Source: Luteitalea sp. (lineage in GTDB: Bacteria; Acidobacteriota; Vicinamibacteria; Vicinamibacterales; Vicinamibacteraceae). Taken from it: 34,551 bases of DNA. The stretch spans positions 1-34,551 of the forward strand of contig WHTT01000015.1 of assembly GCA_009377605.1 (NCBI GenBank). Reading direction: 5' to 3'. Of this stretch, positions 8,425 through 34,454 are shown one piece after another. The notes below the pieces were generated by a model, which worked only from the letters and a program-made list of their open reading frames with translations, was not told the origin of the DNA and ran no database searches. Numbering within the stretch: position 1 is the stretch's first letter; every line of letters begins with the position of its first letter. The translations under genes and the position numbers were made by a program.

Positions 8425-8498
8425 TTCCGAAGCGTCCTGGGGGTGCGACGCCAGGCGGTCCGGACCTTGGTGGGCGGGACGGCGTCCCGCCCGGTGCG

Positions 8499-14198: not shown

Positions 14199-14280
14199 GG
14201 TCATGCCTCGTGTCTGGTTCCTTGCGCGTCGGAACGGCAAAAGCGCCCTCCTCGCGCGCGATCACGGCTGGCGGGGATAG

Positions 14281-15718: not shown

Positions 15719-18700
15719 CTAACGGGGATCCGCACCTTCGTGTCGGCCCTCATCGAGCGCGGCGAGCCGGCGATACAGCGTTGCGCGGCTGACACCGAGC
15801 AGGCGTGCCGCCACGCTGCGATTCCCGCCCGTGCGGTTGAGCGTTTCGATGAGCAGCCGGCGCTCGCTCTCCGGCATCGACGTACGCGACCGTGGCATGC
15901 CGTTCGGCGACAGCTCCGGTGGGAGATCCGCGAGCTTGAGCACGGGACCGGCGGCGCGAATCACCGCCCACTCGATCGCCGACCGAAGCTCGCGGACGTT
16001 CCCCGGCCACCGGTGGCTCAGGAGCTGATCCATCGCCTCCCGGGCGATCCCTTTCACAGACTTCCCGTGCGCCGTGGAGAACTGCGAGATGAGCGCGGTC
16101 GTGAGTTGGGGAATGTCCTCGGTGCGGAGCCGTAGCGGGGGTAGCAGGATACGCGTCACGCGAATGCGGTAGAGGAGATCCTCACGAAATCGGCCGGCGG
16201 AGACTTCCGCCTCCAGGCTGCGGTGCGTCGACGCGAGCACGCGGACGTCGATCGGCCGCGGTTTGGAATCGCCCACGCGAATGATCTCCCGCTCCTGCAA
16301 CACGCGCAGCAGATGCGTCTGCATGCTCATGGGCATGTCGCCGATCTCGTCGAGGAGCAGCGTGCCGCCCTGCGCGGATTCGAAGAGCCCGACGTGATCG
16401 GTGACCGCGCCTGTAAAGGCGCCGCGCTTGTGGCCAAAGAGCTGGCTGGCGAGCAACGACTCGGTGAGCCCGGCGCAGTTGATCGCCAGGAACTGGCGGG
16501 CTCGCCGGCTGCTCGCCTCGTGAATCGATCGGGCGACGAGCTCCTTGCCCGTCCCGGTCTCGCCTTCGATGAGCACTGTCGCATCGACGCCAGCCATAGT
16601 GCGAATTTGCGCGTGCACGAGCCGCATGGCGGCTGACGAGCCGATGAGCGTGCCACTGGAGCCGGTGCGCATGGGACCGGCCGCCCGCTCGAGATCGTAC
16701 GCTTCCGTCACATCGTACAGATACAAGATGCGGTGTCGCTCGTCGCGTGGATCGATACGCACCTCGATCTCTGTCCAGTAGCACGGTCCAGACGACGGCG
16801 CCAGCCTGGCGGCCACCCGCGCACCGACGCGCGGGGCCAGGAGGGCGGTCCGCACCTTCGTCATGGCCTCCGCCGAGATCGGCAGCACCTCATCGAGCGA
16901 GCGCCCGTCCACACTGCCGTTTGCCCCTCCGATCAGGCGTTGTGTGGCCCGGCTCACGAAGCGCACCCGCTCACGGTGATCGACCACGATAACGCCGACC
17001 TGGAGCTGATCGAGCACCGAGACGAGGTGCGCGTGCGACGTTTCGACCACCTCCTTGGCGACGCTCAACTCCGCGTTGGTCTCGCTCATCTGTTGATTCG
17101 CGAGGGCGAGACCTTCACGTTCGCTGCCCAGCTCCGCGGTGCGCTCGGAGACCACGGCCTCCAGCCAACGTGCGCGCTCGCGCAACTGCACGACGCGCAG
17201 GCGGAACACCAGGTAGCCGACGGCCGCCACCAACAGCACGATCACGGCGTAGAACGTTGGCCGCTGATAGAAATGTGGCCGGAGCACCAGCGCCGTCGTG
17301 GCCCCGGTCTCGCTCCAGAGCCCCGCGCTGTTGCGCGCCACGACCTGGAAGCGGTACGAGCCGGGCGCCAGGTTCGCGTAGTGCGCGACGCGTCGAGTGC
17401 CGGCATCCACCCACCCGGTGTCGTGCCCTTCCAGACGATATCGGAACTGGATCTGCTCGGGCCGGGAGAACGCCGGTGCCGTGTAATGGATCTCCAGCTC
17501 GGTTGATCCCGGAGGAGCCGTGATTTGCCGGCGCGTGTCGTAGGCCGTCTCGTTGACCAGCACCTCTTCAATGATGACGGGTGGCGGCGAGGCAGTGTGC
17601 TTGGCTGCCGCCGGATCGATCCGCGCAATACCGCCCTGCGTGGGGAACCATAGGCTGCCGTCGCGCATCCTCCAGCCGGCGGGCTGTGCCATGCCGTTCG
17701 CCTCGGCGTTCTTCATCCCGTCGTGCTCGTCGTAGATGCTGACGCTGAGCCGCTTCACCTTGCCGTCGGCAAAGTCGTTCAGCTCGCGGCGGCTGACGCG
17801 GCGGATGCCCTGGTCGCCGGTCATCCAGAAGTTGCCCTGATCATCCTCGAGGATGCGGTGCACGCCGTTGTCGAGAAGCCCGCCGAGGGTGCCAAAGCGC
17901 GTCACCTGGCCGTCTTTCAGCCGGCACAGGCCGCCGCCGTAAGTGCCGATCCAAACAGTATCCTCCCGGTCGATGTAGATGGCACGCACGGCGCCACGTG
18001 GGAGTCCATCCTCCGTCGTCAAGTTCGTGAACCGGCCGCCAGCATATCGACTGACGCCTCCGCGGGTGCCGATCCAGAGCGCTCCCCGGCGGTCGGTGGT
18101 GATGAAGCGCACGTCGTCGTGCACGAGACCGTCGGTTGTTCGGAACTCGGCCCACCGCCCATCGTGGTAGCGATGCAGGCCGCCATCCGTCCCAATCCAT
18201 AGCGCCCCGGCGTGGTCGCGATGCAGGGCGACGACGTACTCACCCGCGAGCGCGCTATCGCGCACGGTATAGCGGGTGAAACCACCCCCCACGACGTGGA
18301 ACAGCTCACCGCCAAACGTCCCCACCCACACACTGCCGTCGGGGTCCGCCAGCAGCGACGCGGGCACCACGTCCGGATTGCGGTGGCGCGTGATCTGGCC
18401 ATCCTTGATGGCGAGCAGTCCCCCTTCCTTGCCACAGAGGACACCGACCCACACCGTGCCGTCGGGGCCTTGGGTGATGGACATAACGTTGTCACAGGGC
18501 AATCCGTGCTCGCGGGTCAAGCCCGTCACCCGCTCCGGTGTGAGGCGATGTAGCCCCCCGCGTCCTCCGGACATGCCGAACCAAAAGTGGCCCTCTCGGT
18601 CCTGCAGCATCGTCGTGACTTGGCCGTCGGCCTGGTCGGCTACGGGGTGCTCGATCAGTTTCCCCGTCTGCGTGTACTCGAACAGCGCGCCGCGCGCGGC

Positions 18701-19549
18701 CATCCACAACCGGTCGCTTCGGTCCTTCAGGATCTGAAGAACGGTCGTCTGGGCGAGCGGCTCTGGCGCCCGCTCGACGGTCTTGGTATCTCGATCGACC
18801 AGCACGAGCCCTCCCGGCGTGTGCACCCACACCGGGCCGCCTTCCTCCGCATACCGCGGCTCGATCCAGCCGGGTTGCTCGGGAAGGCCGTCACGAGTGG
18901 TGATGGTGCGGACGACTCGGCCGCGCCACTCGATTAGGCCAGTCGTGGTGCCAATCCAGAGCGCGTCACGATCCACGAGGAGACCGGTCGCACGGACGTC
19001 ACCGAGCGAGAGCTTCGTCCATTGATCGCCCGTGCGACACAGGACCTGCCCGCCAATCGCGACCCAGAGACGACCCGAGGCATCCTGCTCGATTGCGTGG
19101 ACGTAGTTGTCCCCGGTATCGATATCGAATTGCGGTCGGGCGAAGGTGCGGTCGAGATAGACAACCAGGCCGGCGTCCGTGCCAATCCACAGTGCACCGT
19201 CTCGATCCTCGTAAAGCGCGGAGATCCAGTTCGCTGGCAGCTCCGGGGTGGTCGTCACGTCGAAGACCGTGAATTCGACGCCGTCGAAGCGCACGAGCCC
19301 GCTGCCGGTGCCAATCCAGAGGTATCCGTCGCGGGTCTGCACGATGGTTCGGATCTGGTTCTGCGGAAGGCCGTGCTGCGTCGTCCAGATGTCGTGAACG
19401 TACCCGGAAACCGGAGGGCCGACCAGCTGTGCCGAGGCAGGCGGGGCGGAGTCATGGAGCACCCAGAGACCCGCCAGGAGGAGCGCCACAGTGGGGTTGG
19501 GACGCCACTGTGGCCAAGCGAACGCGACGGAACGCTTCAAAGCCCACAT
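15719..19549 (-). CDS. Membrane one-component receptor: propeller–Y_Y_Y–TM–PAS–sigma54 AAA+–Fis HTH
   Basis: From ATG 19549 (MWALKRSV) the product is 1276 residues; the frame upstream is not protein-like. A signal/anchor segment (about 18-40) precedes a periplasmic two-component-regulator propeller (about 45-650) with repeats such as HGLPQNQIRTIVQTRDGYLW and LWIGT.GGL.R. A Y_Y_Y domain (about 690-755, FRYRLEGHDTGW..) and a TM helix (about 766-784) follow. Next are a coiled coil, a PAS domain (about 841-950) and a complete sigma54 AAA+ domain: Walker A GETGTGKE (996-1003), GAFTGA (1043-1048), LLLDEIGD. The HTH is about 1237-1264. In usual hybrid systems the same sensor ends in a histidine kinase plus AraC; here neither kinase nor receiver is present, so ligand binding outside is presumably passed straight to the sigma54 activator. 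Carbohydrate is the typical ligand class for such propellers. Confidence 0.88.
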   Translation of the reverse strand: MWALKRSVAFAWPQWRPNPTVALLLAGLWVLHDSAPPASAQLVGPPVSGYVHDIWTTQHGLPQNQIRTIVQTRDGYLWIGTGSGLVRFDGVEFTVFDVTTTPELPANWISALYEDRDGALWIGTDAGLVVYLDRTFARPQFDIDTGDNYVHAIEQDASGRLWVAIGGQVLCRTGDQWTKLSLGDVRATGLLVDRDALWIGTTTGLIEWRGRVVRTITTRDGLPEQPGWIEPRYAEEGGPVWVHTPGGLVLVDRDTKTVERAPEPLAQTTVLQILKDRSDRLWMAARGALFEYTQTGKLIEHPVADQADGQVTTMLQDREGHFWFGMSGGRGGLHRLTPERVTGLTREHGLPCDNVMSITQGPDGTVWVGVLCGKEGGLLAIKDGQITRHRNPDVVPASLLADPDGSVWVGTFGGELFHVVGGGFTRYTVRDSALAGEYVVALHRDHAGALWIGTDGGLHRYHDGRWAEFRTTDGLVHDDVRFITTDRRGALWIGTRGGVSRYAGGRFTNLTTEDGLPRGAVRAIYIDREDTVWIGTYGGGLCRLKDGQVTRFGTLGGLLDNGVHRILEDDQGNFWMTGDQGIRRVSRRELNDFADGKVKRLSVSIYDEHDGMKNAEANGMAQPAGWRMRDGSLWFPTQGGIARIDPAAAKHTASPPPVIIEEVLVNETAYDTRRQITAPPGSTELEIHYTAPAFSRPEQIQFRYRLEGHDTGWVDAGTRRVAHYANLAPGSYRFQVVARNSAGLWSETGATTALVLRPHFYQRPTFYAVIVLLVAAVGYLVFRLRVVQLRERARWLEAVVSERTAELGSEREGLALANQQMSETNAELSVAKEVVETSHAHLVSVLDQLQVGVIVVDHRERVRFVSRATQRLIGGANGSVDGRSLDEVLPISAEAMTKVRTALLAPRVGARVAARLAPSSGPCYWTEIEVRIDPRDERHRILYLYDVTEAYDLERAAGPMRTGSSGTLIGSSAAMRLVHAQIRTMAGVDATVLIEGETGTGKELVARSIHEASSRRARQFLAINCAGLTESLLASQLFGHKRGAFTGAVTDHVGLFESAQGGTLLLDEIGDMPMSMQTHLLRVLQEREIIRVGDSKPRPIDVRVLASTHRSLEAEVSAGRFREDLLYRIRVTRILLPPLRLRTEDIPQLTTALISQFSTAHGKSVKGIAREAMDQLLSHRWPGNVRELRSAIEWAVIRAAGPVLKLADLPPELSPNGMPRSRTSMPESERRLLIETLNRTGGNRSVAARLLGVSRATLYRRLAALDEGRHEGADPR

Positions 19550-19671
19550 TCTATTCGGGAAATCTCTGATAGTGCCCTGGAGTGACCAACTCCAGCACAG
19601 GTTGACTATCGTACACAGAAGAGGTCTCAAGTCAAGATCGAGGGACTGGTGGGGGCCCACCAGGCTCGGTC

Positions 19672-19730
19672 GGAAAACGGGGACAGCCCTCGTTTTCCGC
19701 ATGATGGAAGACGGGCTGTCCCCGTTTTCC
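19672..19730. repeat. 18-bp perfect inverted repeat, REP/RAYT-type
   Basis: GGAAAACGGGGACAGCCC (19672-19689) and its exact reverse complement (19713-19730) flank a 23-nt loop that itself contains CGTTTTCC. The AAAACGGGGACAG motif is widely seen next to REP-associated tyrosine transposases. No transposase gene is in the window. It lies between the divergent receptor and coaA genes, overlapping the region expected to hold their promoters. Confidence 0.75.
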
Positions 19731-19780
19731 CGTTTTCCACGCTTTGACAAACCTGCAAAATGCGGCATGCTGAGTCGCGG

Positions 19781-20728
19781 ATGGCCGAGGCAGCGACGAC
19801 CGCTTCTCGTTTTTCTTCGTTCACGCGCGAGGAATGGGCGCGGCTCCGCGACTCCATGCCACTGACGCTGAGCGAAGGGGACCTGGAGTCCACGCGCTCG
19901 CTGAACGACCAGGTGTCGATGGAGGAGGTGGAGACGATCTACCTCCCGCTGTCGCGGTTGCTGAATCTCTACGTTCACGCGACACAGGAGCTCTATCGCG
20001 CCACGCAGACCTTCCTTGGCAATCACGAAGCCAAGGTGCCATACGTGATTGGCATTGCCGGCAGCGTCGCGGTTGGTAAGAGCACGATTGCCCGGTTGCT
20101 CCAGGCGCTGCTATCCCGCTGGCCAACCCACCCGCGCGTGGACCTCATCACCACCGATGGGTTCCTCTATCCCAACCGTGTCCTGGAGCAGCGCGGCCTG
20201 CTCAGGCGCAAAGGCTTTCCCGAGAGCTATGACAGAGGGCGGTTGGTGCGATTCATGGCGGACCTGAAGGCTGGAGTTCCCGAGGTGCACGCTCCCATGT
20301 ACTCGCACCTCGCCTATGACGTGGTCGCCGGCCACTTCCAAGTGGTGCGGCAGCCAGACGTCGTCATCGTCGAGGGACTCAACGTTCTCGAGGCGCCCGA
20401 GCGGCGGCCGCACCTGTCGCAACTGTTCGTGTCGGACTTCTTCGACTTCTCGATCTATGTCGACGCGGACGAGACGGATGTCGAGCGCTGGTACGTCGAG
20501 CGGTTCCTGACGCTTCGCGATACCGTGTTCCAGGATCCGAAGTCGTACTTTCATCGCTACGGCGGGTTGTCGCGGTCCGAGGCGCGCGATGTGGCGCGCG
20601 GCATTTGGCGCGACATCAATTGGGTGAACCTCCGCGAGAACATCCTCCCGACCCGAGAGCGCGCGCACCTGGTGCTGACCAAGGTGGCGAACCATTTCGT
20701 CCAGCAGGTGCAGTTACGGCGTGTGTGA
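19781..20728 (+). CDS. coaA: Type I pantothenate kinase
   Basis: ATG 19781 gives 315 residues, the size of the E. coli enzyme (316); an in-frame ATG at 19760 adds seven. The enzyme phosphorylates pantothenate with ATP, the first step of coenzyme A synthesis, in the cytoplasm. The P-loop is [12 protein letters not shown] (about residue 90). Also present are TTDGFLYPN, the FPESYD substrate segment, [20 protein letters not shown] and [13 protein letters not shown], all family signatures in the usual order, and the C-terminal [17 protein letters not shown]. It is divergent from the receptor gene. The gene looks intact and is a likely housekeeping marker at the edge of the accessory region. Confidence 0.95.
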
Positions 20729-20986: not shown

Positions 20987-21085
20987 TGTCGCCCGGTGGT
21001 AAGTCCACGAATCCGACGGCACGATTTCGTTCTTAGGAGTTCTATCGGGTGGCGGCCGGCGTTGATCCCTACTGGAGGGAACATC

Positions 21086-22864
21086 ATGGCCAAGTCCGTG
21101 CGCGACCGCGTCGGCGATGCGCTGCGCCACAACCGTCCTTGGTACAAGCTGCCGCGGCTGCTCGCGATGCCGCGCCTCGTGGAGATTCGGAACGACCAGC
21201 GGGAGCAGAACCTGCACGACACCGAGGAGCCGCCGCTCCAGAAGCAGGAGATTCCGCCCGACCTCAGCCCTCAGCTGCGGGAAGAGCGGACGGTCGATGG
21301 CACGCACAACGACTTGCGCTACCCCCGGATGGGCAGCGCCGGCTGTCGGTTTGGCCGGAACTTTGCGCTCCAGCACGTGGCGCCGGACAGCGCCAATCTG
21401 CTGAATCCAAACCCCCGCGTCGTCTCGCGGGAGCTCATGACCCGCGAGACGTTCCAGCCCGCCACGATCTTGAATCTGATGGCCGCCTCCTGGATCCAGT
21501 TCATGGTGCACGACTGGTTCGTGCACAAGACATCCAGTCTGGCCGACGGTATGGACATCCCGGTGCCTGCGGGTGACACGTGGCCAGCAGCGGCCATTCG
21601 GGTGCCGCAGAGCGTGCCAGATCCCGCACCCGCCGGGTCATCGAATCCACCGGCCTACGTCAATCTCAATAGCCACTGGTGGGACGCTTCGCAGATCTAT
21701 GGGTGTGACGAGGCCAGTGCCGCCAAGCTGCGGAGCAGCGAAGGCGGCAAGCTCGAGGTGGAGGCGACCAAACTCCTGCCGCTCGATCCGGCGACCGGTA
21801 TCGAGTGCACCGGATTCACCGACAACTGGTGGCTCGGCCTGGCAACGCTGCACACGCTGTTCACGCTCGAGCACAATCACATCTGCGATCTCTTGCAGCA
21901 GCAGCACCCCGGCTGGAGCGACGGCCAGATCTACGGCAAGGCGAGGCTGATCAACGCTGCGCTCATGGCGAAGATCCACACCGTCGAGTGGACGCCCGCG
22001 ATCCTGCCGAACCCGATCATCAAGACGGCGATGAACGCCAACTGGAACGGTCTCACCGGGCCGGATCTGCAGGAGGTGCTCGAGTTCCTCAACGACAGCG
22101 AGCTGCTCGGCGGGATCATCGGCTCCAAGGCGGATCACCATGCAGCGCCGTACTCACTAACCGAGGAGTTCGTGGCGGTGTATCGCATGCACCCACTGAT
22201 CCCGGACGAGCTCGTGCTGCGATCGGCGACGACCGGCGAGGTGCTGGAGCGACATCAGCTGCCGGAGGTCTCTGGCCGCGAGTCGCGTCCCATCCTCGAG
22301 CGTGTCTCCATGGCGGACCTGTTCTATTCGTTTGGCGTTGCGCACCCGGGAGCGCTGACGCTCCACAACTACCCACAGCACCTGCAGAATCTCCATCGCG
22401 AGAACGGCGAGCACCTGGACTTGGCGGCTGTCGACATCCTGCGCGATCGCGAGCGCGGGGTGCCACGCTACAACCAGTTTCGACGATTGCTCCGCAAGGA
22501 GCCGGTCAAGTCTTTCGAAGAGCTCACCGACAATGCCGAGTGGCGCGAGCAGATCCGCAAGGTCTATGACGACGACCTCGAGAAGGTGGATCTCATGACG
22601 GGCCTCTATGCGGAGCCGTTGCCCGAAGGCTTCGGCTTCAGCGAGACGGCGTTTCGGATCTTCGTCTTGATGGCCTCGAGGCGGCTCAAGAGCGATCGCT
22701 TCTTCACAGACGACTATCGGCCCGAGATCTACACCGAGCTCGGCCTGAGTTACATTCGCGACAACGGCATGGCCAGCGTCCTGAAGCGACATCTTCCGGA
22801 GCTCGCGCCGGCGCTTCAAGGCGTCGAGAACCCATTCGCACCTTGGCGGGCCGTGGGAGGTTAG
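21086..22864 (+). CDS. Heme peroxidase family, alpha-dioxygenase/cyclooxygenase-like
   Basis: ATG 21086 follows GGAGGG by 6 nt and gives 592 residues. The fold is the animal-heme-peroxidase/COX/plant alpha-dioxygenase superfamily (PF03098). Residues 141-147 VHDWFVH contain the distal histidine (H142). HTLFTLEHNHIC (about 256-267) is the conserved R/LEHN helix. EFVAVYRMHPLIPDEL carries Y366-R-M-H369, equivalent to the catalytic tyrosine and proximal heme histidine of COX (Tyr385/His388). Presence of this tyrosine suggests fatty-acid oxygenation (hydroperoxide formation) rather than simple peroxidase chemistry. There is no signal peptide. The substrate and whether products act as signals are unknown. 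It is the last gene before the motif-bearing accessory zone. Confidence 0.85.
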   Translation: MAKSVRDRVGDALRHNRPWYKLPRLLAMPRLVEIRNDQREQNLHDTEEPPLQKQEIPPDLSPQLREERTVDGTHNDLRYPRMGSAGCRFGRNFALQHVAPDSANLLNPNPRVVSRELMTRETFQPATILNLMAASWIQFMVHDWFVHKTSSLADGMDIPVPAGDTWPAAAIRVPQSVPDPAPAGSSNPPAYVNLNSHWWDASQIYGCDEASAAKLRSSEGGKLEVEATKLLPLDPATGIECTGFTDNWWLGLATLHTLFTLEHNHICDLLQQQHPGWSDGQIYGKARLINAALMAKIHTVEWTPAILPNPIIKTAMNANWNGLTGPDLQEVLEFLNDSELLGGIIGSKADHHAAPYSLTEEFVAVYRMHPLIPDELVLRSATTGEVLERHQLPEVSGRESRPILERVSMADLFYSFGVAHPGALTLHNYPQHLQNLHRENGEHLDLAAVDILRDRERGVPRYNQFRRLLRKEPVKSFEELTDNAEWREQIRKVYDDDLEKVDLMTGLYAEPLPEGFGFSETAFRIFVLMASRRLKSDRFFTDDYRPEIYTELGLSYIRDNGMASVLKRHLPELAPALQGVENPFAPWRAVGG

Positions 22865-22963: not shown

Positions 22964-23031
22964 GATGTCATCGAGTCGATCTGTGTCAACTCGCGCCTGG
23001 CCGGGCATCGGCACCGCTGAGCTTCGAATTT

Positions 23032-23047
23032 CTACGTACGTAGGTAG
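23032..23047 (+). promoter_or_regulatory. 7-2-7 motif copy 1 (upstream of secreted tail-tube-like gene)
   Basis: CTACGTA-CG-TAGGTAG followed by TGACG. It lies 91 bp before ATG 23138. A -10-like TATACT at 23089-23094 would place the motif centre near -61, typical for class I activation. Confidence 0.7.
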
Positions 23048-23137
23048 TGACGCGCGCCCGAGTCCGTGGTTCACTTCGTCACGAGCTATATACTTGGCGG
23101 GGGTATAGTCCCCAGGCCTTCGAGAAAGGACGAGGAG

Positions 23138-23683
23138 ATGCAACCAGAGAAGTACTCTTGTCGTTTGTTTACCTGTCTCTCTGAACGGGGATTGGCAGGA
23201 ATCTCGGGCGCCGCCGGATCGGTGTTGGTAGCTGCCGCAATGGTTCTCGTTGCGTTCCAGCAGGTCAGCGCACAGGAACCGACGGCCGGCCGCGTCTCGC
23301 TGATCATTGACGAGGTGGAAATTGCCTCCTTTTCAGAGCTTGTGGAGATCTCGTCGACCACACATCACGTGAACCGCTTGACCGGCTTCCGGCTCGTGCA
23401 GCCCCAAGTCGAATGCACCGCTGTCCTGCGACGAGGGGTGACGACCGACGACGAGTTGTGGGCGTGGTATCAAAGCGTCGTCGGCGGCGTCGGTGGGCCC
23501 CTGGGGAAGAACGCCGCGATCGCGATTCTCGACCGCGCTGGGACACCGATTGTGCGGTTCAATCTCGAGAACGCTTGGCCTTCACAGATCGAGATCGGCG
23601 GCTTCGACGCGGCCGGCTCCACGGCAATCGTGACGGAGACCGTGACGTTGACGTGCGAGCGCATCACGCGGGCGGCGCCGTAA
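23138..23683 (+). CDS. Exported T4 gp19-like (phage tail-tube fold) protein
   Basis: ATG 23138 follows an AGGACGAGGAG ribosome site; the product is 181 residues. The first about 46 residues are a basic region and a long hydrophobic stretch ending FQQVSAQ, a Sec signal or anchor. The rest matches the T4 gp19-like tail-tube family: a starting strand GRVSLIIDEVEIASFSELVEIS, then AVLRRGVTTDDELWAWYQSVVGG, NAAIAILDRAGTPIVRFNLENAWPSQ and a final ETVTLTCERI strand. Tail-tube proteins of phages and contractile injection systems are cytoplasmic and polymerise into hexameric rings, so an exported version is unusual. No other tail or sheath gene is near. Motif copy 1 lies upstream, and the gene ends 6 bp from the convergent exported-protein gene. 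Confidence 0.78.
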   Translation: MQPEKYSCRLFTCLSERGLAGISGAAGSVLVAAAMVLVAFQQVSAQEPTAGRVSLIIDEVEIASFSELVEISSTTHHVNRLTGFRLVQPQVECTAVLRRGVTTDDELWAWYQSVVGGVGGPLGKNAAIAILDRAGTPIVRFNLENAWPSQIEIGGFDAAGSTAIVTETVTLTCERITRAAP

Positions 23684-23689
23684 GAGACA

Positions 23690-24469
23690 CTAGAGAGGCG
23701 ACTGGCGTGTGGTGAACGGTGAGTCGAACGACAGGCCCGTCGTGGCGCTCAGGGTCGTGATGTTGGCCGAGATGGCGCCTTGCGCCCCATCGTGAGCAAG
23801 CTGTACGGAGCCACTCTGATCGCCCGTGAGGGTAAAATGTGCCTTGAGTCCCACCACGGTGTTGCCGTTGGCAAGAATCACCGTCGAGGTCTGCCCCACG
23901 ACGGTCCCATCGCCGCTGTAGGCGGTCAAGTAAACGCGTCTCTGAATGTCGGTGTTGTTCTTGATCTCGACGAAGCCTTCATACCCGTCGTCCACCGACG
24001 TGTACCACCAGGGTGAGAAGAGTGTGGTCTCCACCAGCAGCACGTGGACGGTGAACGTAGCAGTGGGTGTCTGTTGGAACCAATCGACCGAAAGCCGGAC
24101 GGTTCCGGAGCCCCCGGGCAAATAGACCTTTTGCGCGCCGCGGTGGCCATGAAGAAAAAGGTGCGGCTCGGAAAGGAGGGTATTGGGGCCTAGTGAAAAC
24201 CCGTCGTCGGCGAACCCGCTACCCTGAAGGTTCACCGAGCTCTCGGAGGGGTCCGTGTAGGGCGCCCAGGCGTACAGGTAGTACGACCGGCCCTCGACGA
24301 AGCGCGCTTTGAACCAGCGCTTTTTGATTTCTGGCGAGAGCGTTGTTGACCTGACTTGTCCCATGAACAGGAAGTCTGCGTTGTCCGACGTCGTGTTGTC
24401 GGCCCACGCGACGGTTGATCCGGTGCACAGCATGGCAGTTGCCACAACCAGTGTGGTGAGTTGCTTCAT
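23690..24469 (-). CDS. Exported protein of unknown function
   Basis: ATG 24469 has AGGAGG 6 nt upstream; the product is 259 residues. A clear signal peptide (MKQLTTLVVATAMLCTG..VAWA) is cleaved near residue 24. The mature part is beta-rich with aromatic clusters (RSYYLYAWAPYTDPSESS; LFSPWWYTSVDDGYEGFVEIKNNT) and two apparent sandwich-like halves. The second half resembles the pattern of the C-terminal modules in proteins A and B (an 'I.N.T....V.LT....G....' strand order), but I cannot claim homology. It is convergent with the tail-tube-like gene and is preceded by motif copy 2, so I place it in the NarL-type regulon. Confidence 0.75.
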   Translation of the reverse strand: MKQLTTLVVATAMLCTGSTVAWADNTTSDNADFLFMGQVRSTTLSPEIKKRWFKARFVEGRSYYLYAWAPYTDPSESSVNLQGSGFADDGFSLGPNTLLSEPHLFLHGHRGAQKVYLPGGSGTVRLSVDWFQQTPTATFTVHVLLVETTLFSPWWYTSVDDGYEGFVEIKNNTDIQRRVYLTAYSGDGTVVGQTSTVILANGNTVVGLKAHFTLTGDQSGSVQLAHDGAQGAISANITTLSATTGLSFDSPFTTRQSPL

Positions 24470-24521
24470 CGTTCGCCTCCTGTGACGCACGACCTCACGG
24501 CCGTTGTCGCTTGGCTCCGCA

Positions 24522-24534
24522 CCTGCGTAGTGAC
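24522..24534 (+). promoter_or_regulatory. Half-site of the 7-2-7 motif facing copy 2
   Basis: CCTGCGTAGTGAC matches the right half of the motif (CCTWCGTAGTGAC) with one change, in the opposite orientation to copy 2. GTAGTGAC here and GTCACTAC at copy 2 form a 8-bp inverted repeat about 40 bp apart. Confidence 0.4.
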
Positions 24535-24580
24535 CCCGACTCGAGTGCCGCTATGGTGGACCATCTCCCGGTTCGCGTCA

Positions 24581-24596
24581 CTACGTAGGTACGTAG
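24581..24596 (-). promoter_or_regulatory. 7-2-7 motif copy 2 (upstream of exported protein 23690-24469)
   Basis: On the minus strand this is CTACGTA-CC-TACGTAG, a perfect 7-2-7 inverted repeat, followed by TGACG. It is 112 bp before ATG 24469. The surrounding about 70 bp is shared with copy 4. Confidence 0.75.
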
Positions 24597-24659
24597 GAAT
24601 CTTCGTCCGATGCGAGCGGCCCGAATCGCTCCCGCGGTCCTGGCCACTCCGCTGCGCGT

Positions 24660-25367
24660 TCACCGCAGGAGGCGATGGTGCAGCGCCTTGGCGACCGCTT
24701 CGGTCTTGCTGTGGACCTGGAGCTTCTCGTAGATGCGGCGGAGGTGGAACGAGATCGTGTGCACGGTGACGCCGAGCTCGGTGGCGGCCGTCTTGTAGTT
24801 GTAGCCGTCGGCAAAGAGGCGGAGGACGCGGATTTCGTGCGGTGTCAGGTTGTAGTCGGCCTGTGCTGGCGGCCGGACGGCGCGAAAGAGCGTGATGACA
24901 CGGCTTGCCACGTCTGGTGACATGGGCGCCCCGCCAGCGACGGCATCGTTCAGAGCGTCGAGGATTTGCGGTGGCGGCGTTTTCTTGAGCAGGTACCCGC
25001 ACGCGCCGGCACAGAGCGCCTCGAAGATCCGTGCGTCATCCTCGTAGACGGTGAGCATCACGCACAGAATCTTCGGCGCGATGGCGGCCAGACGGCGAAC
25101 GCCGTCGATGCCGGACATCCCGGGCAGTCCGATATCGAGCAACGCGACCTGAGGCCGGTCGCTCAGGAGCGGACCGAGGGCTGCCTCCATGGAGCGATAG
25201 GCCCCCGAACAATGGAACTCGGGCGTGCTGTCGAGCAGCGTGGCGAGGGACTCGCGAATCTCGCGCTGGTCTTCGACGATGGCCACGCGGATGCGCGGGA
25301 CGGCGCGGGGAAGCGGCTCGGTGCCAGGGGCTTGGTCGGGGACTTGGTCGGGGGCTTGGTCGGGCAT
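24660..25367 (-). CDS. NarL/FixJ-family response regulator, orphan
   Basis: ATG 25367 gives 235 residues; an ATG further upstream (25412) would overlap regulatory DNA. After a PDQA-type repeat tail (residues 2-14), a receiver domain (about 26-145) has the acidic pair E32/D33, phosphoacceptor D78 (VALLDIGLPGMSG), T106 and K128/K129. A LuxR-type HTH follows (about 170-230; LTPHEIRVLRLFADGYNYKTAATELGV, then VHTISFHLRRIYEKL). Such proteins dimerise on phosphorylation and bind inverted heptamers. No histidine kinase is nearby. The gene's own upstream region carries motif copy 3, suggesting autoregulation, and five neighbouring genes carry the same motif. Confidence 0.9.
   Translation of the reverse strand: MPDQAPDQVPDQAPGTEPLPRAVPRIRVAIVEDQREIRESLATLLDSTPEFHCSGAYRSMEAALGPLLSDRPQVALLDIGLPGMSGIDGVRRLAAIAPKILCVMLTVYEDDARIFEALCAGACGYLLKKTPPPQILDALNDAVAGGAPMSPDVASRVITLFRAVRPPAQADYNLTPHEIRVLRLFADGYNYKTAATELGVTVHTISFHLRRIYEKLQVHSKTEAVAKALHHRLLR
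25331..25366. repeat. 12-bp tandem repeat (3 units) at the response regulator start
   Basis: Three units of CTTGGTCGGGGN lie immediately after the start codon (minus strand) and encode PDQAPDQVPDQA. A whole number of codons per unit means copy-number change would alter only the tail length. Confidence 0.75.
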
Positions 25368-25419
25368 GGACGATTCCAACGGACCAGTACAGCTTGCCCG
25401 TGCGTGCCACATCACGTCA

Positions 25420-25435
25420 CTACGAAGGTACGTAG
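25420..25435 (-). promoter_or_regulatory. 7-2-7 motif copy 3 (upstream of the response regulator itself)
   Basis: The minus strand reads CTACGTA-CC-TTCGTAG followed by TGACG, 53 bp before ATG 25367. It lies at the junction with the truncated methyltransferase fragment that begins about 25441. Confidence 0.75.
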
Positions 25436-25440
25436 GTCTT

Positions 25441-25755
25441 TTCATAAACGTCAGCGAGACGGTACTCACGAAGAACGATCATCAACTCGTCACCACGGGC
25501 CCTTATCGTTGGGTTCGTCATCCCTTGTACACGACGGGGGTCGTGCTCTTCTCGAGCATTGGTCTGATGGCAGGAGGCTGGCTCATCTTGCTGTGGGCAG
25601 TGATCGCCCTGATCGCCGTTCGCCTCGTTGTCATTCCGCGCGAGGAGACACACTTGGTGTCGGCGTTCGGAGATGAGTATCCGCATTATCGGCGTGGGAC
25701 GGGTTCGATGCTGCCATTGTTCCTAAGCGCCCGGAGCAGAGGCCGTGCTGGCTAA
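25441..25755 (+). pseudogene. 5'-truncated isoprenylcysteine carboxyl methyltransferase-like gene
   Basis: The frame from about 25441 reads TKNDHQLVTTGPYRWVRHPLYTTGV, a TM helix, then VIPREETHLVSAFGDEYPHYRR. This is the conserved C-terminal half of ICMT/PEMT-type membrane methyltransferases (canonical LVTTGPYRWVRHPMY ... EE..L...FG..Y..Y). The normal N-terminal half with two or three TM helices is absent. Upstream in frame is antisense to the response regulator. The break coincides with motif copy 3. I see no ribosome site or start at the break, so it is likely a relic. Confidence 0.7.
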
Positions 25756-25829
25756 CACCCGCTGCCACGCGACGCGCTCAGGATCAATTGTCGTGAGCCT
25801 CCCGCAGGCCGGATTGCACATTCCCGATC

Positions 25830-26204
25830 ATGAAGACATTCATCACCACGATCGTGATCAGCATGCTGCTGGGAGGCTCAATCGCCGCGCACGGCGACGA
25901 GGGCGCGCCAGATTATCGCCGCATCCGTCAGGGACTTCGACGATCCGCGGCGCCCTCGACTTTTGCTATCGTCGAGCTGCCGCCAGCGCGCCGGCAGCCC
26001 CCACAGGTCCGCCAGCGTGATTCCATCTGGAACGGTGTGCTGATAGGGGCCGGCGTCGGCGCCGCCGGTGGGTTCCTCTGGGCGCAGAACATCTGCGACG
26101 GCAACGACAGTGAATGTTCCGCCATCGCGACCCCAGTCGGGGTGCTCGCAGGCGCGGGCATCGGCACCGCAGTGGGCGCGATCGTGGATCTCCTGCACAA
26201 GTAG
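25830..26204 (+). CDS. Small exported glycine-zipper protein
   Basis: The 124-residue product starts with a signal-like segment (MKTFITTIVISMLLGGSIAAHG). After a proline/arginine-rich linker come two glycine-rich hydrophobic segments (GVLIGAGVGAAGGFLWAQN and VGVLAGAGIGTAVGAIVDLL), a glycine-zipper arrangement usual in small membrane-inserting or outer-membrane lipoprotein-like proteins. Two cysteines (ICDGNDSEC) lie between them. Function is unknown. No strong ribosome site is visible, so the start is tentative. It is convergent with the 26272-26910 gene. Confidence 0.6.
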   Translation: MKTFITTIVISMLLGGSIAAHGDEGAPDYRRIRQGLRRSAAPSTFAIVELPPARRQPPQVRQRDSIWNGVLIGAGVGAAGGFLWAQNICDGNDSECSAIATPVGVLAGAGIGTAVGAIVDLLHK

Positions 26205-26271
26205 CAGGATTGCGCGCAGGATACCGTCCTGGATCCCGATCTCAGCAAACACGTCGACGCCAAGATTGCGT

Positions 26272-26910
26272 TCAGTCGAGCAGATACCCGGTGATCGTCG
26301 CTCCGACGGTGCCGCGCCCGTTCACGGGATCCACCAGCTGTGCCCTGAGGCACCAGGGGTCGGCTTCCGGTGTAAGGGGAAACACGATTGGGACGGGATA
26401 GGTGAGCTGCACGGTGTGAAACGATGGCACGACCACGTTAAAGCCCGTCGATACGATGCTGCCCTGGCAGTCGTCTACCACCAGACGCACGGTCACGTAC
26501 CGCGTGGCGCTCGAGGCAGGTAGGAAGCTGAACGCGGCGCTGCTGATCGCGTAGTGACCGGACAGCTCAGAGACAAAGCCGTTGGTGTCCACCAGCTCGA
26601 CGTCCGCCAGGTAGGCGCTGCCCTGCATGACTTTCTGTCGCGTGGGCGCTGCGAGCAAATTGTCGACGCGCACCGCCCCGTTTACGGGGACGGGCTCGGC
26701 CGGCGCGTTCGTCACGGTCACCGGAAGGCCGACGGCGGCCGGGCTTCCGGGCTCGATCTGGCTGACCGCCTGGACCTCCTTGGCGTTGGGGGTGTCGATG
26801 CCCTGACCGGCGTGGGTCACCCCGATGACACCTGTCGCGCCGGCCAGCAGGCCAACCACGACGATCTTCGTCACCGCGGCTTTCACGGCTGTTGTCATGT
26901 GTGCTTGCAC
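26272..26910 (-). CDS. Exported protein of unknown function
   Basis: GTG 26910 has AAGGAGG close upstream, giving 212 residues. A hydrophobic signal (IVVVGLLAGATGVIGVTHAG) precedes a mature part without recognised family. Its central VPVNGAVRVDNLLAAPTRQKV and the beta-rich remainder with two Cys (VDDCQGS, DPWCLRAQL) resemble the non-collagen C-terminal domains of exported proteins. It is 104 bp downstream of the collagen/propeller gene on the same strand, so probably the second gene of that motif-4 operon. Confidence 0.7.
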   Translation of the reverse strand: MQAHMTTAVKAAVTKIVVVGLLAGATGVIGVTHAGQGIDTPNAKEVQAVSQIEPGSPAAVGLPVTVTNAPAEPVPVNGAVRVDNLLAAPTRQKVMQGSAYLADVELVDTNGFVSELSGHYAISSAAFSFLPASSATRYVTVRLVVDDCQGSIVSTGFNVVVPSFHTVQLTYPVPIVFPLTPEADPWCLRAQLVDPVNGRGTVGATITGYLLD

Positions 26911-27014
26911 GTTTCCTCCTTAGCGCGGTCACCTCACGGCACGCCCAACGCGCCTAATTGCAGATCGGTGTCGCGCGGTGCAGGACCTTCAGATTGGCGT
27001 TGGTGGCGTTGCCT

Positions 27015-28271
27015 CTACAGCTTTGTCACCGAGCTGTTGCCAGAATTCGCGACCCAGATATTGGCACCGTCAAAGGCCAGGCCGAGCGCCCCTGTTGGTG
27101 CCGAGATGACGGTGAAGGTACCCAGCACGGCGCCGTCGACCGCGCGCAGCTTCGTCACCGTGTTGTCCAAGAGGGTGGCGATCCAGACGTTGGCTCCGTC
27201 GAAGGCAATACTTCGCGGCAAGCCGCCGACGCTGAACGTGGCCAACACGGTGCCGTCGACCGCGCGCAGCTTCGTCACCGTGTTACTGCCTGAATTGGCA
27301 ACCCAGATGTTGCTGCCGTCGAAGGCGACGCCTTCAGGGTTGAGGCCGACGCTAATCGTGTCGAGTGCGGTGCCGTCGGTCGCCTGCAGCTTCGTCACTG
27401 TGCCGCTACCGGAGTTGGCGACCCAGATGTTGGCCCCGTCGAAGGCCACGCCTGTTGGCTGGTCGCCGACGTTGAAAGTGCCCAGCAGGTTGGCGTTGGC
27501 CGCCCCCATCTTCGTCACGGTATTGCTGCCCGAGTTGGTCACCCAGACGTTTTCACCATCGAAGGCCACGCTCTGGGGGCTCACTCCGACGGGGAAGGGG
27601 CCGAGCACGGCGCCGTCGGATGCGCGTAGCTTGTTCACCGTGTCGTTGCCTGAGTTCGCCACCCAGATGTTGGCGCCATCGAAGGCCACGCCTTCGGGGT
27701 TGAGGCCGACGAAAAAGCTGCCCAGAACGGAACCATCGGCTGCCTGCAGCTTCGTGACCGTGTGGTCGCCGTAGTTGGTGACCCAGATGTTGGCTCCATC
27801 GAACGCCATGGCACGCGGTATTTCACCGACGCTGAACTCGGCGCCAGACTGATTTCCTCCGTACCACCGCAGCAACGCGACCCGCAAAGGATCGAGACCA
27901 TTGCTCGGAGGCCCGGGTGGGCCGGGCGGTCCCACAGGACCGTCGACACCGGCAGGACCCTGCTCGCCCGAGGGACCAGCCGCGCCGGCGGGGCCCGATG
28001 GCCCGGTAGGACCAGCAGGACCCTGCGGGCCGGGTTCCCCCTGTCGGTTCCACGTCACGCGCTTCTCCCACGCGTAGCACGCCTGAGTGGCGACGACGAT
28101 TCTCGTGGCGAGCGTCGTCGTGCATGCGTGAATCTCCTCCACGTCGGTCGTGGACTGGGCGACTGCTGCGGCCGTGATGCCGGCGACCACCACGACCGCG
28201 ACGACGAACCAGATCAAGAGGCTCCGGTTCGGGCCTCGCCGATCGTTCCTGCGTCGAATCCACGTGCTCAC
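27015..28271 (-). CDS. Exported collagen-like plus seven-bladed propeller protein
   Basis: GTG 28271 follows AGGAGG; the product is 418 residues. A TM/signal segment (about 17-39) precedes a short two-cysteine region ([22 protein letters not shown]), then 15 Gly-X-Y triplets (GEPGPQGPA.. to GPP). Then come seven repeats of about 40 residues with the signature VG..P.[15 protein letters not shown]..TVTKL.A.DG..LG, a YncE/NHL-type beta-propeller; the last blade ends at VTKL. The 120-bp DNA period of these repeats spans about 27015-27840. Such proteins are secreted or surface-exposed and the propeller probably binds ligand or partner. The same IHAC..WN.QG start plus collagen block occurs in the 29551 gene. 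Motif copy 4 lies 93 bp upstream. Confidence 0.85.
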
Positions 28272-28363
28272 GCGAGATCCTCCTCGTCTACCCAGGTGTC
28301 AGTCAGGGCGGCTGTCGCCGCGACTCGAGGGCTCCATGGTGGGCCACGTCCCGGTTCGCGTCA

Positions 28364-28379
28364 CTACGTAGGTACGTAG
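28364..28379 (-). promoter_or_regulatory. 7-2-7 motif copy 4 (upstream of collagen/propeller gene)
   Basis: The minus strand reads CTACGTA-CC-TACGTAG followed by TGACG, identical to copy 2, with about 70 bp of shared flank (28321-28393 against 24537-24612). Confidence 0.75.
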
Positions 28380-28428
28380 GAATCTCTGTCCGTGGCAGGA
28401 ATCGGTGGCGTGAGTCGACCCGTGGCAA

Positions 28429-28448
28429 CTCGTTCCGGCCGGAACGAG
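28429..28448. repeat. 20-bp perfect palindrome
   Basis: CTCGTTCCGG and its exact complement meet without a spacer, 10 bp after the end of the broken serine-hydrolase gene. It could be that gene's old terminator stem or a protein-binding site. Confidence 0.5.
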
Positions 28449-28457
28449 CTCTTGCGT

Positions 28458-29302
28458 CTAGCGGGCGGCAGTCGACGACGACGCGGCAAGCGCCGGGAAG
28501 ACCCGCTGCGCGAAGTGATCACGGATCGCATCGTCCAGCCGGCGTGTGTTGGGCCGATCCGGATTCGCCTGTGAGCTTGCGTTCGTGTTGTAGGCGACGA
28601 TGAACGCGGCGCGCGAGGCGGGATGGACGAAGAAGTGGGACATGAAGCCGTTCTGCTCGCCGCTGTGCCCGATCAGATCGAGGCCGTCGCGGCGCTCCAG
28701 GAAGTAGCCGAGGCCGAGCGACACACCGGGCTCTGGCCCCGCGATCTGCGGCCGGAACATCTCTTCGAGCGAGCTGCGCTTCAGGACCACGTCATCGCGT
28801 CGAGCTGCTTCCAGGACGGCGGCTCGAACGGGTGCCACGCCTTGTCGCCGCCCCACGAGCCCCACGTCGGATCGCGGAAGCCGGAGCTGTGCGACAACAG
28901 GTGCCGAATCGTGATCGCCGACATCTCACCGAAGGGATTGTGCGCGTGCCGCAGCTCCGGCACGTACTTCACGATGGGATCCTCGAGTGCCAGCAGGCCG
29001 CGATCGCGCAGCTGCAGGATCGCGATCGCCGTGAACGTCTTCGTGATCGACGCCCAGTGATAGATCGTCCGCTCGTCCACCTGGCGCTTCGCGTCGCGAT
29101 CCTGCAGGCCGTAAACCTCGTGCCGCAGGACGTCTCCGTCCTGTATCACGAACAGGGATCGACGCGGAGTTCCTGAAGCTTCGAGCGCAGCTGCCACAGC
29201 TTGCCCAGCCGAACATGCGCGTGCTGGAGACTGTTGACCCCCGCGCGTCGTCGCTGGTCGACCTGGCTTTCGCGGCCGCGTGCACCGTCTTTGTCCTTGC
29301 AC
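28458..29302 (-). pseudogene. Broken serine beta-lactamase-like (class C) hydrolase
   Basis: Two minus-strand frames are needed. The first (to about 28781) holds the catalytic SITK (HWASITKTFTAIAILQL), LEDPIVKYVPELRHAHNP and LLSHSSGFRDP, typical of class C/PF00144 hydrolases. The second (28458-28865) holds SLEEMF, GLGYFLERRDGLDLIGHSGEQNGFMSHFFV, the late HSG element and closing helices. Between them the central part with the YxN motif (about 130-150 residues in relatives) is missing and the frame changes, with overlap at about 28781-28830. The start is also uncertain: the expected N-terminal helix appears in another frame (LRSKLQELRVDP, near 29170). An intact member would be about 380 residues. 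Confidence 0.75.
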
Positions 29303-29436
29303 ATCGCGCGCTCGACCTGCCCTATCGCGACTCTCCTCGCCCGAGTTTCAGCTAACCCGTCGACCCCGAATAGTTGTTTCGCGGCGCTCCTTATCACTGG
29401 CGTCAAAGCGGTCCTTTGATGGGGCGCGTGCGATTG

Positions 29437-29452
29437 CTACGTACCTTCGTAG
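29437..29452 (+). promoter_or_regulatory. 7-2-7 motif copy 5 (upstream of collagen-like gene)
   Basis: CTACGTA-CC-TTCGTAG followed by TGACA, 99 bp before ATG 29551. Confidence 0.75.
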
Positions 29453-29499
29453 TGACACCGGCCGCAACGTGGCGAATCCTTGACCGAAACCGGACCTGA

Positions 29500-30225
<726 letters not shown>

Positions 30226-30312
30226 GCGTATTGTCGCCTTCGGCCCGCGGCGATCGGCTCGGACGGCTTCCTCGGGCGCCTGACAGCGCTGGGGCCGCCG
30301 GATGGAGAGACC

Positions 30313-31845
30313 ATGAGAAGCAAGCGCGTGTCATTGTTCCGCGGTGCGGCAGAGGTCCGTCGTCTGCGGCCCGCATACGGCATCACGTTGGTGCTGGCGC
30401 TGGCGGCGTGCTCGCCCAGCGGGCAGGAGCCGAGCGAGCCGGTAGCAAGGTCGTCGGAAGAGCCCGCGGTGAAGCGTGCCGAGCCGTCGACAGCGACGGA
30501 GGCGGAGCCGAAGCCGAAGAACCCCGTCAAGGGCGTGGATGCCAAACCGGCAGCGAGCGCACTCGCGATTGAAGGCCGGAACATACGTTTGGTGCGGGTG
30601 GGTGAGGACGAGCTCGCCCTGCAGTTCGAGTTCTTCAACGGCACGAAGGATACGCTCCGCCCGAGTGATGTGGACATCTACGTGCTGGGGCCCAAGGTGC
30701 TGCTCGCTGATCTGCCCCGCGGGACGTCCTATGGCGTGCTGCCGGAATCGGGGAACGACTCGCGGATCAGCGAGAGCTCTCACGAGCCGGCGCCGCCCGG
30801 CAGGTCGGTCATCGTGACCGCGATGTTCACAGCGCCCCCTGCGGAGACCACCAAGATGCTGGTCATGGTCGCGGGTCTGCTCCCGGTGATCGTGCCCGTG
30901 CAACCGCAGGGCGCGAGCGCGCTGCAGGATGACCCGGTGTTGAGAGGCCCGCAGCCCGAGCGCCGCATGCTCGGGCCCCTCGTGTGCCGCACCGAAGGTG
31001 GAGACGGGGAGTCGGATCAGTCGGTCGTCGAGCTCAGACTGCCCAGCGACCTCCTGTTCGAGTTCGGCAGTGCCAAGCTGTCCGCAGAGGCGCAGTCGGC
31101 GATCAGCACGGCCGGGAAGGAGATCAGTGGTCGCAGCGGCACAGTCACCATCGAGGGGCACACCGACAGCGTGGGCGAGGATGCCTCCAACCAGACCCTG
31201 TCTGAGCAACGCGCAGCGTCGGTGCGAGACGGGCTGCGTGCCGAGCTCGGTGACGGGTTCAGTTACGAAACCGTTGGCTTCGGCGAGACCAAGCCGGTCG
31301 CGACGAACCAGAACCCCGACGGCAGCGACAACCCGGACGGGCGGGCCCAAAACCGGCGGGTCGAGGTGCGTCTCGGCACGCTGACCCCGGCAGGTCCCCC
31401 GACGTTGGAACCTGCCGAGCTCCAGAACGATCTGGTCGAGGCCGGCTTCCAGGTCAGTGCCGAGAGCCTCGAGCGGCGCGCGGGCTACGTCCTCGCCCGG
31501 GTAACGGTGACCAACCCGACCTCCGCTCCATTGGAGCTCACCTTCGGCAGTGGACTTATGCCCTCCATAAGCCAGGCACCAGAAGGGTTGACCCTGGCCG
31601 ACAAGACGACCCAGCGCCGCCACAGCATCTGCCACGCCCCGGAAGCCGGGATGTACCTGCACTACCTGGGGAACTTCGTCGGCGTCTACGAACCGTCAGA
31701 CTCCAGCGTTGTACCCGGCGGCGCCGATGTGGTCTTCTGGGGGCTGTATCCCGCTCCCCCAACCGAGGTCACCTCCATGGATCTTGAGATCGGCGGGTTC
31801 GGCAAGGTCGTATCGGCTCAGGTCAAGGCCACAGGTATCCCGTGA
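30313..31845 (+). CDS. OmpA-family lipoprotein with extra domains
   Basis: ATG 30313 follows GGAGAG; 510 residues. The leader ends LALAAC, a lipobox with acylation at C33. A charged linker is followed by a beta-rich domain (about 75-215), then an OmpA/Pal peptidoglycan-binding domain (about 230-345). The latter shows LLFEFGSAKLSAEA, IEGHTDSVGEDASNQTLSEQRAASV and NPDGRAQNRRVEVRL (conserved TD.......N..LS..RA..V and NRRVE). The C-terminal 150 residues form another beta-rich domain of unknown family. It probably anchors the outer membrane to peptidoglycan. Its position after the collagen-like gene suggests a shared transcript under motif copy 5. Confidence 0.85.
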   Translation: MRSKRVSLFRGAAEVRRLRPAYGITLVLALAACSPSGQEPSEPVARSSEEPAVKRAEPSTATEAEPKPKNPVKGVDAKPAASALAIEGRNIRLVRVGEDELALQFEFFNGTKDTLRPSDVDIYVLGPKVLLADLPRGTSYGVLPESGNDSRISESSHEPAPPGRSVIVTAMFTAPPAETTKMLVMVAGLLPVIVPVQPQGASALQDDPVLRGPQPERRMLGPLVCRTEGGDGESDQSVVELRLPSDLLFEFGSAKLSAEAQSAISTAGKEISGRSGTVTIEGHTDSVGEDASNQTLSEQRAASVRDGLRAELGDGFSYETVGFGETKPVATNQNPDGSDNPDGRAQNRRVEVRLGTLTPAGPPTLEPAELQNDLVEAGFQVSAESLERRAGYVLARVTVTNPTSAPLELTFGSGLMPSISQAPEGLTLADKTTQRRHSICHAPEAGMYLHYLGNFVGVYEPSDSSVVPGGADVVFWGLYPAPPTEVTSMDLEIGGFGKVVSAQVKATGIP

Positions 31846-32264
31846 ACACCGGGAAGGTCCTGCCCTGCTCAACGGTTGCAGCGATCAGGTCCGTCCACAG
31901 GACACCTGCGTCCACATCGGTTGACGAGATGGCGAACCCCAGACTCGTGGAGAAAGTCGAACGCCTTCTGACAGAAGGATGTGAACGGGCTCGCAACGGG
32001 GTTCTTCATGTCGCCCGCTGGAGCCGTTCCGGCGGGATCCCGAGTGAGCGCGCCAGGCTGATGGGGTGGTCGTCGTCCGCAAACACGGCGATGTCCATGA
32101 GCTCCGATGTGAGCAATGCCTCCAGGACGGCGATCGAAGTGTCGATGCTCATCGCGCTTGTGAGATCTAGGCGATACGCAGATGGAAGCCATCGGGATTC
32201 GCGGGATGTCCGCTCCCACACCACGATGAGACGTCAGCGCGGCCGCACGTGGCGGCGCGATGGA
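31846..32264. other. No recognisable gene
   Basis: This 419-bp stretch between the OmpA-like gene and the GNAT remnant holds only a 72-codon minus frame (32006-32224, with VLEALLTSELMDIAVFADDDHP) that I cannot assign. It may be decayed coding sequence. Confidence 0.4.
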
Positions 32265-32743
32265 CTACCGTTCATCCCAAGGCTTGATCAGCACCGCCCG
32301 CGTGTAGAGCAGGATGAAGCCGCGCCTCATCACGTTGGCCTGCGATCGCGAGCCGGGTGCAGTGGTGACGACGGCCAGATCGCAGCCGGCGGCAGCGGCA
32401 TCGGTGAGACGACGATGGAGGAGCGCGGTCTGGACGCCGCGACCGCGGAACGCCGGTAGCGTTGCGGCGCCCGCGACCTGCGCGAGCCCATCGCGGAGCG
32501 CCAGACTGGCGACACCAGAGCTCGACGCGGACGGCCTCGCCGCGCGCGTGCCATTCCTGCTCGATCGTTTCCAGGCTTGTTCGCGGGAGAGCTCGGGCTG
32601 ACGTACACAGCCAGCCCTCCGACAGTGGGCAGGACGAGCGCGCGGCTATCAGGCCGCGACTCGCGCACGGCAGTGGCGGCGCCCGCCAGGAGATGAGCCT
32701 CCGCACGATCGATGCGCGCAGCGAGCGCGGTATCGGCGAACAC
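32265..32743 (-). pseudogene. Broken GNAT-type acetyltransferase
   Basis: Three minus-strand frames contribute. The N-terminus MFADTALAARIDRAEAHLL...PTVGGLAVYVSPSSPANK is in one frame. SLETIEQEWHARGEAVRVEL is in a second. The acetyl-CoA-binding C-terminus (GLAQVAGAATLPAFRGRGVQ, TALLHRRLTDAAAAGCDLAV, PGSRSQANVMRRGF) is in a third, ending at TAG 32265-32267. RGRGVQ is the GNAT motif A (Q/RxxGxG/A). Relatives are about 270 residues; about 100 residues between VRVEL and the C-terminal part are deleted. At least two frame changes plus this internal deletion make it a pseudogene. Confidence 0.7.
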
Positions 32744-32786
32744 GCGGGGATTCTATCAGTCTCTCGTGTAATTCATCGCTTGACCG

Positions 32787-34295: not shown

Positions 34296-34346
34296 ACGAT
34301 CCCGAGCTCAGGAAGCAAGTCAACACCAAGATTGCGTTGCGCGTCA

Positions 34347-34362
34347 CTACGAGGGTACGTAG
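34347..34362 (-). promoter_or_regulatory. 7-2-7 motif copy 6 (upstream of membrane-propeller gene)
   Basis: The minus strand reads CTACGTA-CC-CTCGTAG followed by TGACG, 52 bp before ATG 34295. The right heptamer is the most divergent of the six. Confidence 0.7.
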
Positions 34363-34454
34363 AAATACGATCCAACGAGGAGCCCAGCTCGTCCATGCGG
34401 CCGGGACCGTGCAGAAGGTGCCTGGGAAATCGATGGCCCGTACAGGCCGTCACG

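Follow-up and report, generated by a model that had tools for sequence, protein, structure and literature searches.

A phage tail-tube fold behind a signal-like N-terminus: a rare clade of probably exported gp19-like proteins in Acidobacteriota

The tail-tube fold is found in phages, eCIS, R-type bacteriocins, gene transfer agents and T6SS, and we know of no case in which the protein is synthesized other than in the cytoplasm. Hcp, the T6SS tube protein, forms rings and occurs outside cells, but it has no signal, being synthesized in the cytoplasm and released via the T6SS. Our search of the literature, limited to open-licence papers, found no relevant description of signal-bearing or orphan tail-tube proteins. 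In known tubes a hairpin loop of near-constant length (25-28 residues) passes under the neighbouring subunit and reaches two subunits of the next ring (PMC6088184), and mutation of two residues in the equivalent loop of Hcp1 abolishes ring stacking (PMC4650826). The gene analysed here lies on a contig of Luteitalea sp., within a stretch of 34,551 nucleotides which we call the window, and the features of its product are the following.

23138-23683, plus strand: gp19/tail-tube-fold protein of 181 aa, probably exported (ORF; PF06841, E 7.9e-18; 65% identical paralogue; dN/dS about 0.2-0.3 for the mature part)
23138-23272, plus strand: signal-peptide-like segment, with an n-region containing K/R, an h-region VLVAAAMVLVAF (aa 29-40) and VSA/Q after aa 45 (hydropathy; kept in the paralogue and in two other genomes)
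23273-23680, plus strand: predicted mature tube-fold domain of 136 aa (AlphaFold pLDDT 83.3, pTM 0.77; Foldseek; VIA)
23366-23404, plus strand: shortened hairpin loop, mature residues 32-44, in the inter-ring contact region of canonical tubes (FxE-to-VLRRG spacing; PMC6088184)

The ORF starts with an ATG directly preceded by GAGGAG. PF06841 (Phage_T4_gp19) is the sole Pfam match of the product, at 65 bits for a curated cut-off of 28.2; the absence of the Hcp family among the Pfam matches sets the protein apart from the T6SS Hcp proteins. Against TIGR02241 (conserved phage tail region protein) it scores 57.7 bits, slightly below the curated cut-off of 62.4, and thus falls just outside that family. 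Matches to the CIS1 and CIS5 inner-tube models are weak, those to PHROG tail-tube families are at 7e-7 and 4e-4, and every solved structure found by sequence is a contractile-injection tube protein or a chain of such an assembly. A monomer model was predicted with AlphaFold from the mature part together with eleven viral-contig homologues. Foldseek ranked eCIS tube proteins first for this model (PlPVC1, Pvc1 and Afp1, E about 2e-7; 1.7e-7 for the PlPVC1 tube), and VIA-align gave Z scores in the range 9.5-11, with 11.2 to Hcp1 (6bdc), 9.9 to Afp1 and 9.8 to Pvc1; the rmsd was about 6 A in most long alignments and 2.8 A over 94 residues for 9vne_B. Vibrio GspE (4ksr_A) stands among the Hcp rows of the VIA list, but this entry is an Hcp1 fusion and hence no independent fold match. 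The T4 gp19-like domain that the earlier note had called clear, and whose predicted structure it had proposed as a check, is borne out by Pfam, PHROG and the model alike, and we regard the predicted tail-tube fold of the mature protein as firm.

The window protein begins with a long n-region (28 aa), followed by a hydrophobic core and then VSA/QE. Its 12-residue hydropathy maximum is 3.02, compared with at most 1.97 among some 64 non-exported homologues (L032 in this list is a clade member counted twice); the three relatives described below reach 2.43-2.71. As judged by sequence pattern, the Sec-type arrangement (charged n-region, hydrophobic h-region, AXA-type site) is present and conserved across these four proteins, so that the Sec-type signal asserted by the earlier note is upheld as a signal-like N-terminus. 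The window protein would thus probably be exported across the inner membrane by the Sec route, with putative cleavage at VSA/Q.

PF06841 genes number exactly two in the source genome (6.8 Mb, 97.5% complete): the one in the window and a paralogue on contig C46, which is likewise signal-bearing and 65% identical to the window protein over 166 residues. For the mature part of the pair dN is 0.21-0.22 and dS 0.75-1.17; both genes are therefore kept by purifying selection. A survey for signal-bearing orthologues, as suggested in the earlier note, revealed two more among 396 genomes of the phylum, one each in two distant genomes, G179 and G247. With a profile of the two paralogues these members ranked first phylum-wide (8e-29 and 1e-21, the next homologue being at 3e-14); with a profile of all four they are at 5e-85 and 1e-73, values which are high by construction since both sequences are part of the profile, and the next best homologue is at 3e-20. 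Maximum-likelihood analysis of 67 proteins united the four signal-bearing ones in one clade (support 100/98, recovered in 200 of 200 bootstrap trees), set apart from about 60 non-exported homologues by a branch of 0.97. The signal is found in all four members and in no other homologue. The clade retains core motifs of the family such as FxE, the helix W, the E-x-A-W-P-S strand and E-x-V-T. It spans three families of the phylum and is rare, with 3 genomes among some 500 searched: no further member was found among 162 genomes of the order or among 41 of the class of G247, the clade profile had no match in viral contigs, and phage records gave no tblastn match at 0.01. Relatives were retrieved by whole-genome profile searches; back-translated one- and two-protein pattern scans of genome contigs were too specific and retrieved none. 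Plasmid matches reaching the signal region, in Deinococcus and Streptomyces, proved to be eCIS tube genes of the ordinary kind, adjoining sheath or tail genes.

Genomic context separates these genes from those of known tubes. A contractile-tail or eCIS tube gene is expected in one cluster with sheath, baseplate and gp25 genes, but neither the window nor 84 kb of the contig showed a recognisable tail, sheath or baseplate gene, in agreement with what the earlier note had seen, and no sheath, baseplate or gp25 gene was recognised within 17 kb or more around any of the four clade genes (ORFs were called by a simple length and codon-position caller, and Pfam scans were run on selected ORFs). The G179 and G247 members stand alone. 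At the genome level, the PF04984 tail sheath is absent from all three genomes of the clade and gp25 from G179 and G247; the source genome has a single gp25 match, which belongs to a T6SS-like cluster on contig C36, and no other contractile system was seen in this genome. This cluster (C36:1-18000), whose subunits were recognised by eye from gene order and N-termini, contains two different Hcp-like genes (8427-8945 and 9627-10109), both without signal. Signal-free homologues adjoin sheath genes in G002, G011, Deinococcus, Streptomyces and Cereibacter, and those of tail or eCIS clusters that were placed in the tree fall outside the signal-bearing clade; true orthologues lacking the signal within tail clusters, which the earlier note had named as a refutation, were not encountered. 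Signal-free homologues in three further genomes (G003, G005 and G118) stand alone, with no recognisable tail gene in the surrounding 17 kb. They belong to the same tube family and are the nearest relatives in the tree, but differ from the signal-bearing proteins in having no signal and a hairpin of normal length (spacing 36-37). The one from G118 is the sister of the clade (99/87), albeit on a long branch, which suggests an evolutionary order from tail gene to stand-alone gene and then to exported gene.

A structural difference concerns the inter-ring hairpin. In an alignment at about 30% identity, the stretch between FxE and VLRRG, which contains this loop, measures 31 residues in three clade members, including the window protein, and 26 in the fourth, for a median of 37 in canonical homologues. 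All four have thus shortened the hairpin, by 6-11 residues, and depart from the normal length of known tubes (PMC6088184). Leaving aside the duplicate L032, a spacing below 34 occurs in a single homologue, the non-exported L024 (27). Since this loop joins the rings in known tubes, the signal-bearing proteins would not be expected to stack as canonical tubes. Taken together, the proteins resemble the eCIS inner tubes Pvc1 and Afp1 and T4 gp19 (PF06841, TIGR02241) in domain family, predicted fold, core motifs and best structural matches, but differ from them by the signal, the lack of sheath and baseplate genes, the shortened hairpin and their separate clade. They share the fold class with Hcp, to which the highest VIA score was obtained, but carry a putative Sec-type signal and belong to another Pfam family.

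The promoter region links the gene to others in the same genome. Sites matching TACGTAGGTA with at most one mismatch number 10 in the window, 0.3 being expected, and the longer element TACGNAGGTACGTAGG, again with at most one mismatch, has 12 sites in the genome against 0 for a reversed-pattern control; 8 of the 12 are on the contig of the window and 2 on that of the paralogue. With a 26-bp matrix built from these 12 sites, the gp19 site being left out of training, the gp19 promoter scores 31.7 bits, the control maximum being 14.0. The copy before the gp19 gene is degenerate, and that of the paralogue lies about 590 bp before its ATG. Relative to its gene the element always points the same way, typically about 50-210 bp upstream, and it is common to a dozen or so genes, mostly for putatively exported, signal-bearing products, three of them collagen-like, and including a LuxR-type response regulator. 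The earlier note's claim of a promoter with a regulon motif of surface proteins is supported in that the element is shared with mostly putatively exported proteins. The site and the main genes that share it are listed here.

23025-23050, minus strand: promoter element TCACTACCTACGTACGTAGAAATTCG, 87 bp before the gp19 ATG (31.7 bits; orientation as at the other regulon genes)
23690-24469, minus strand: signal-bearing protein, convergent neighbour, with no Pfam family above cut-off (element 45.5 bits, 109 bp upstream)
24660-25445, minus strand: NarL/LuxR-type response regulator (PF00072, PF00196; element 38.6 bits)
27015-28271, minus strand: putatively exported collagen-like and NHL-repeat protein (Pfam Collagen, NHL; element 45.0 bits)
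29551-30225, plus strand: putatively exported collagen-like protein (Pfam Collagen, 4e-8; element 43.3 bits)
C11:91741: collagen-like protein
C15:50078: outer-membrane barrel
C46:8342: 767-aa protein with beta-lactamase-like, Calx-beta and Big_1 domains

At 25417-25442 the element runs across the annotated start of the response regulator; the true start of the regulator is therefore probably at or below 25412, and the overlap suggests autoregulation. By its position, this regulator may well be the protein that binds the shared element. A propeller histidine kinase with HisKA_3 adjoins the paralogue (C46:3207-6551), and HisKA_3 kinases are the usual partner type of LuxR-type response regulators. 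Outside the source genome, the element has 6 sites in the other genome of the genus and one in G007, and none was found in thirteen others that were checked, among them G179 and G247; collagen-like neighbours are likewise absent at the G179 and G247 genes. Regulation by this element thus looks local, whereas probable export is common to the whole clade. Viewed for itself, the exported-protein regulon defined by TCACTACGnAGGTACGTAGGAATC (23025-34369 in the window, contig C15 to 61 kb, C46 and C11) is concentrated on one contig, includes its own likely response regulator of LuxR type, and is found also in the other genome of the genus. Bacterial collagen-like exported proteins and the tube-fold proteins have this promoter element and putative export in common, but their sequences are unrelated: they are only co-regulated, and adjoin each other at the paralogue. 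There, 17 bp 3' of the paralogue, a signal-bearing ORF with a GPPGPPGG collagen-like stretch (L058:2267-2953, on C46) shares its EIHAC-type head with the collagen-like proteins 27015-28271 and 29551-30225. Paralogue and ORF likely form an operon.

We favour, at a probability of about one half, a domesticated, putatively exported tube-fold protein residing in the envelope or at the surface as single rings or small oligomers, and being neither a tail component nor a secreted tube. A stand-alone gene of the tube family would have gained a signal peptide once and shortened its inter-ring hairpin. The protein would probably cross the inner membrane via Sec, be cleaved at VSA/Q and act in the periplasm or at the cell surface. 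As the mature protein keeps the beta-barrel core, it may still assemble into one ring or a small oligomer, while a long stacked tube would be improbable. The LuxR-type regulator, perhaps driven by the propeller kinase beside the paralogue, might bind the shared element and so bring about co-production with collagen-like and other exported proteins, and the tube-fold protein could then be a scaffold or an adhesive part of the envelope. Points that weigh against this reading are the long n-region of the window protein, the low identity of the alignment behind the loop comparison together with the equally short loop of the non-exported L024, the degenerate element before the gp19 gene and the distant one of the paralogue, and the G179 and G247 members, which have neither the element nor collagen-like neighbours. 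The other readings differ from this one mostly in what becomes of the ring. Loss of ring formation as well, leaving a monomeric exported beta-barrel whose fold serves only as a stable framework for binding or inhibition, is a possibility to which we lend limited weight: the shortened loop is the one that also passes under the neighbouring subunit (PMC6088184), and the clade has strongly diverged, but the core motifs of the family are retained. At the other extreme, the mature protein may stack into hexameric tubes in the periplasm or outside the cell, giving a nanotube possibly decorated by collagen-like fibres. The tube fold with its best matches among eCIS inner tubes, the likely operon of the paralogue with a collagen-like ORF, and the presence of a second copy, reminiscent of systems that use multiple tube proteins, would all fit, but we consider this unlikely, given a shortened hairpin in each of the four members (PMC6088184, PMC4650826), no initiator, terminator or baseplate genes, and G179 and G247 members that stand alone. 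The proposal of the earlier note, a tail-tube fold repurposed as an exported polymer or tube, is sustained by fold, signal and clade as far as repurposing for export is concerned, while the hairpin argues against its tube or polymer part. A bolder variant, which we think improbable, has a phage tail tube exapted for export: assembling beyond the cytoplasm as a ring or tube, it would be linked to collagen-like fibres in the way that tail tubes are linked to tail fibres, making a non-contractile, Sec-secreted, tail-derived surface structure under its own two-component switch.

Two more conventional explanations can be given very little credit. A decaying tube gene left by a prophage or eCIS, with an accidental hydrophobic N-terminus, would be in keeping with the common occurrence of relatives in eCIS clusters; this reading is disfavoured by four signal-bearing members from three families in one clade, by purifying selection, by the shared promoter element and by the lack of tail genes nearby. 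That the protein is an extra tube subunit of the T6SS of its own genome is no more credible. Such a cluster is present and the fold does resemble that of Hcp, but the cluster has its own two signal-free Hcp-like genes, a Sec-exported subunit would be unable to load a tube built in the cytoplasm, and G179 and G247 are without gp25 or sheath match.

If the preferred reading, that of a domesticated envelope protein, is correct, a clade with a signal peptide, a partly lost ring-stacking loop and, in this genus, membership of an exported-protein regulon would show that the fold can quit the injection machine entirely. It would also provide a natural experiment as to which parts of the fold serve rings and which serve tubes.

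Several other genes of the window deserve mention. Upstream of the gp19 gene and on the same strand, 20996-22864 encodes an animal haem peroxidase family protein (E 1e-109). The 1435-aa product of 15719-20026 has a two-component-type beta-propeller and Y_Y_Y fused to PAS, sigma-54 activator and Fis HTH domains, apparently with no kinase, and 8499-14204 encodes a signal-bearing protein of 1901 aa with GEVED, DUF7927 and seven DUF11 repeats.
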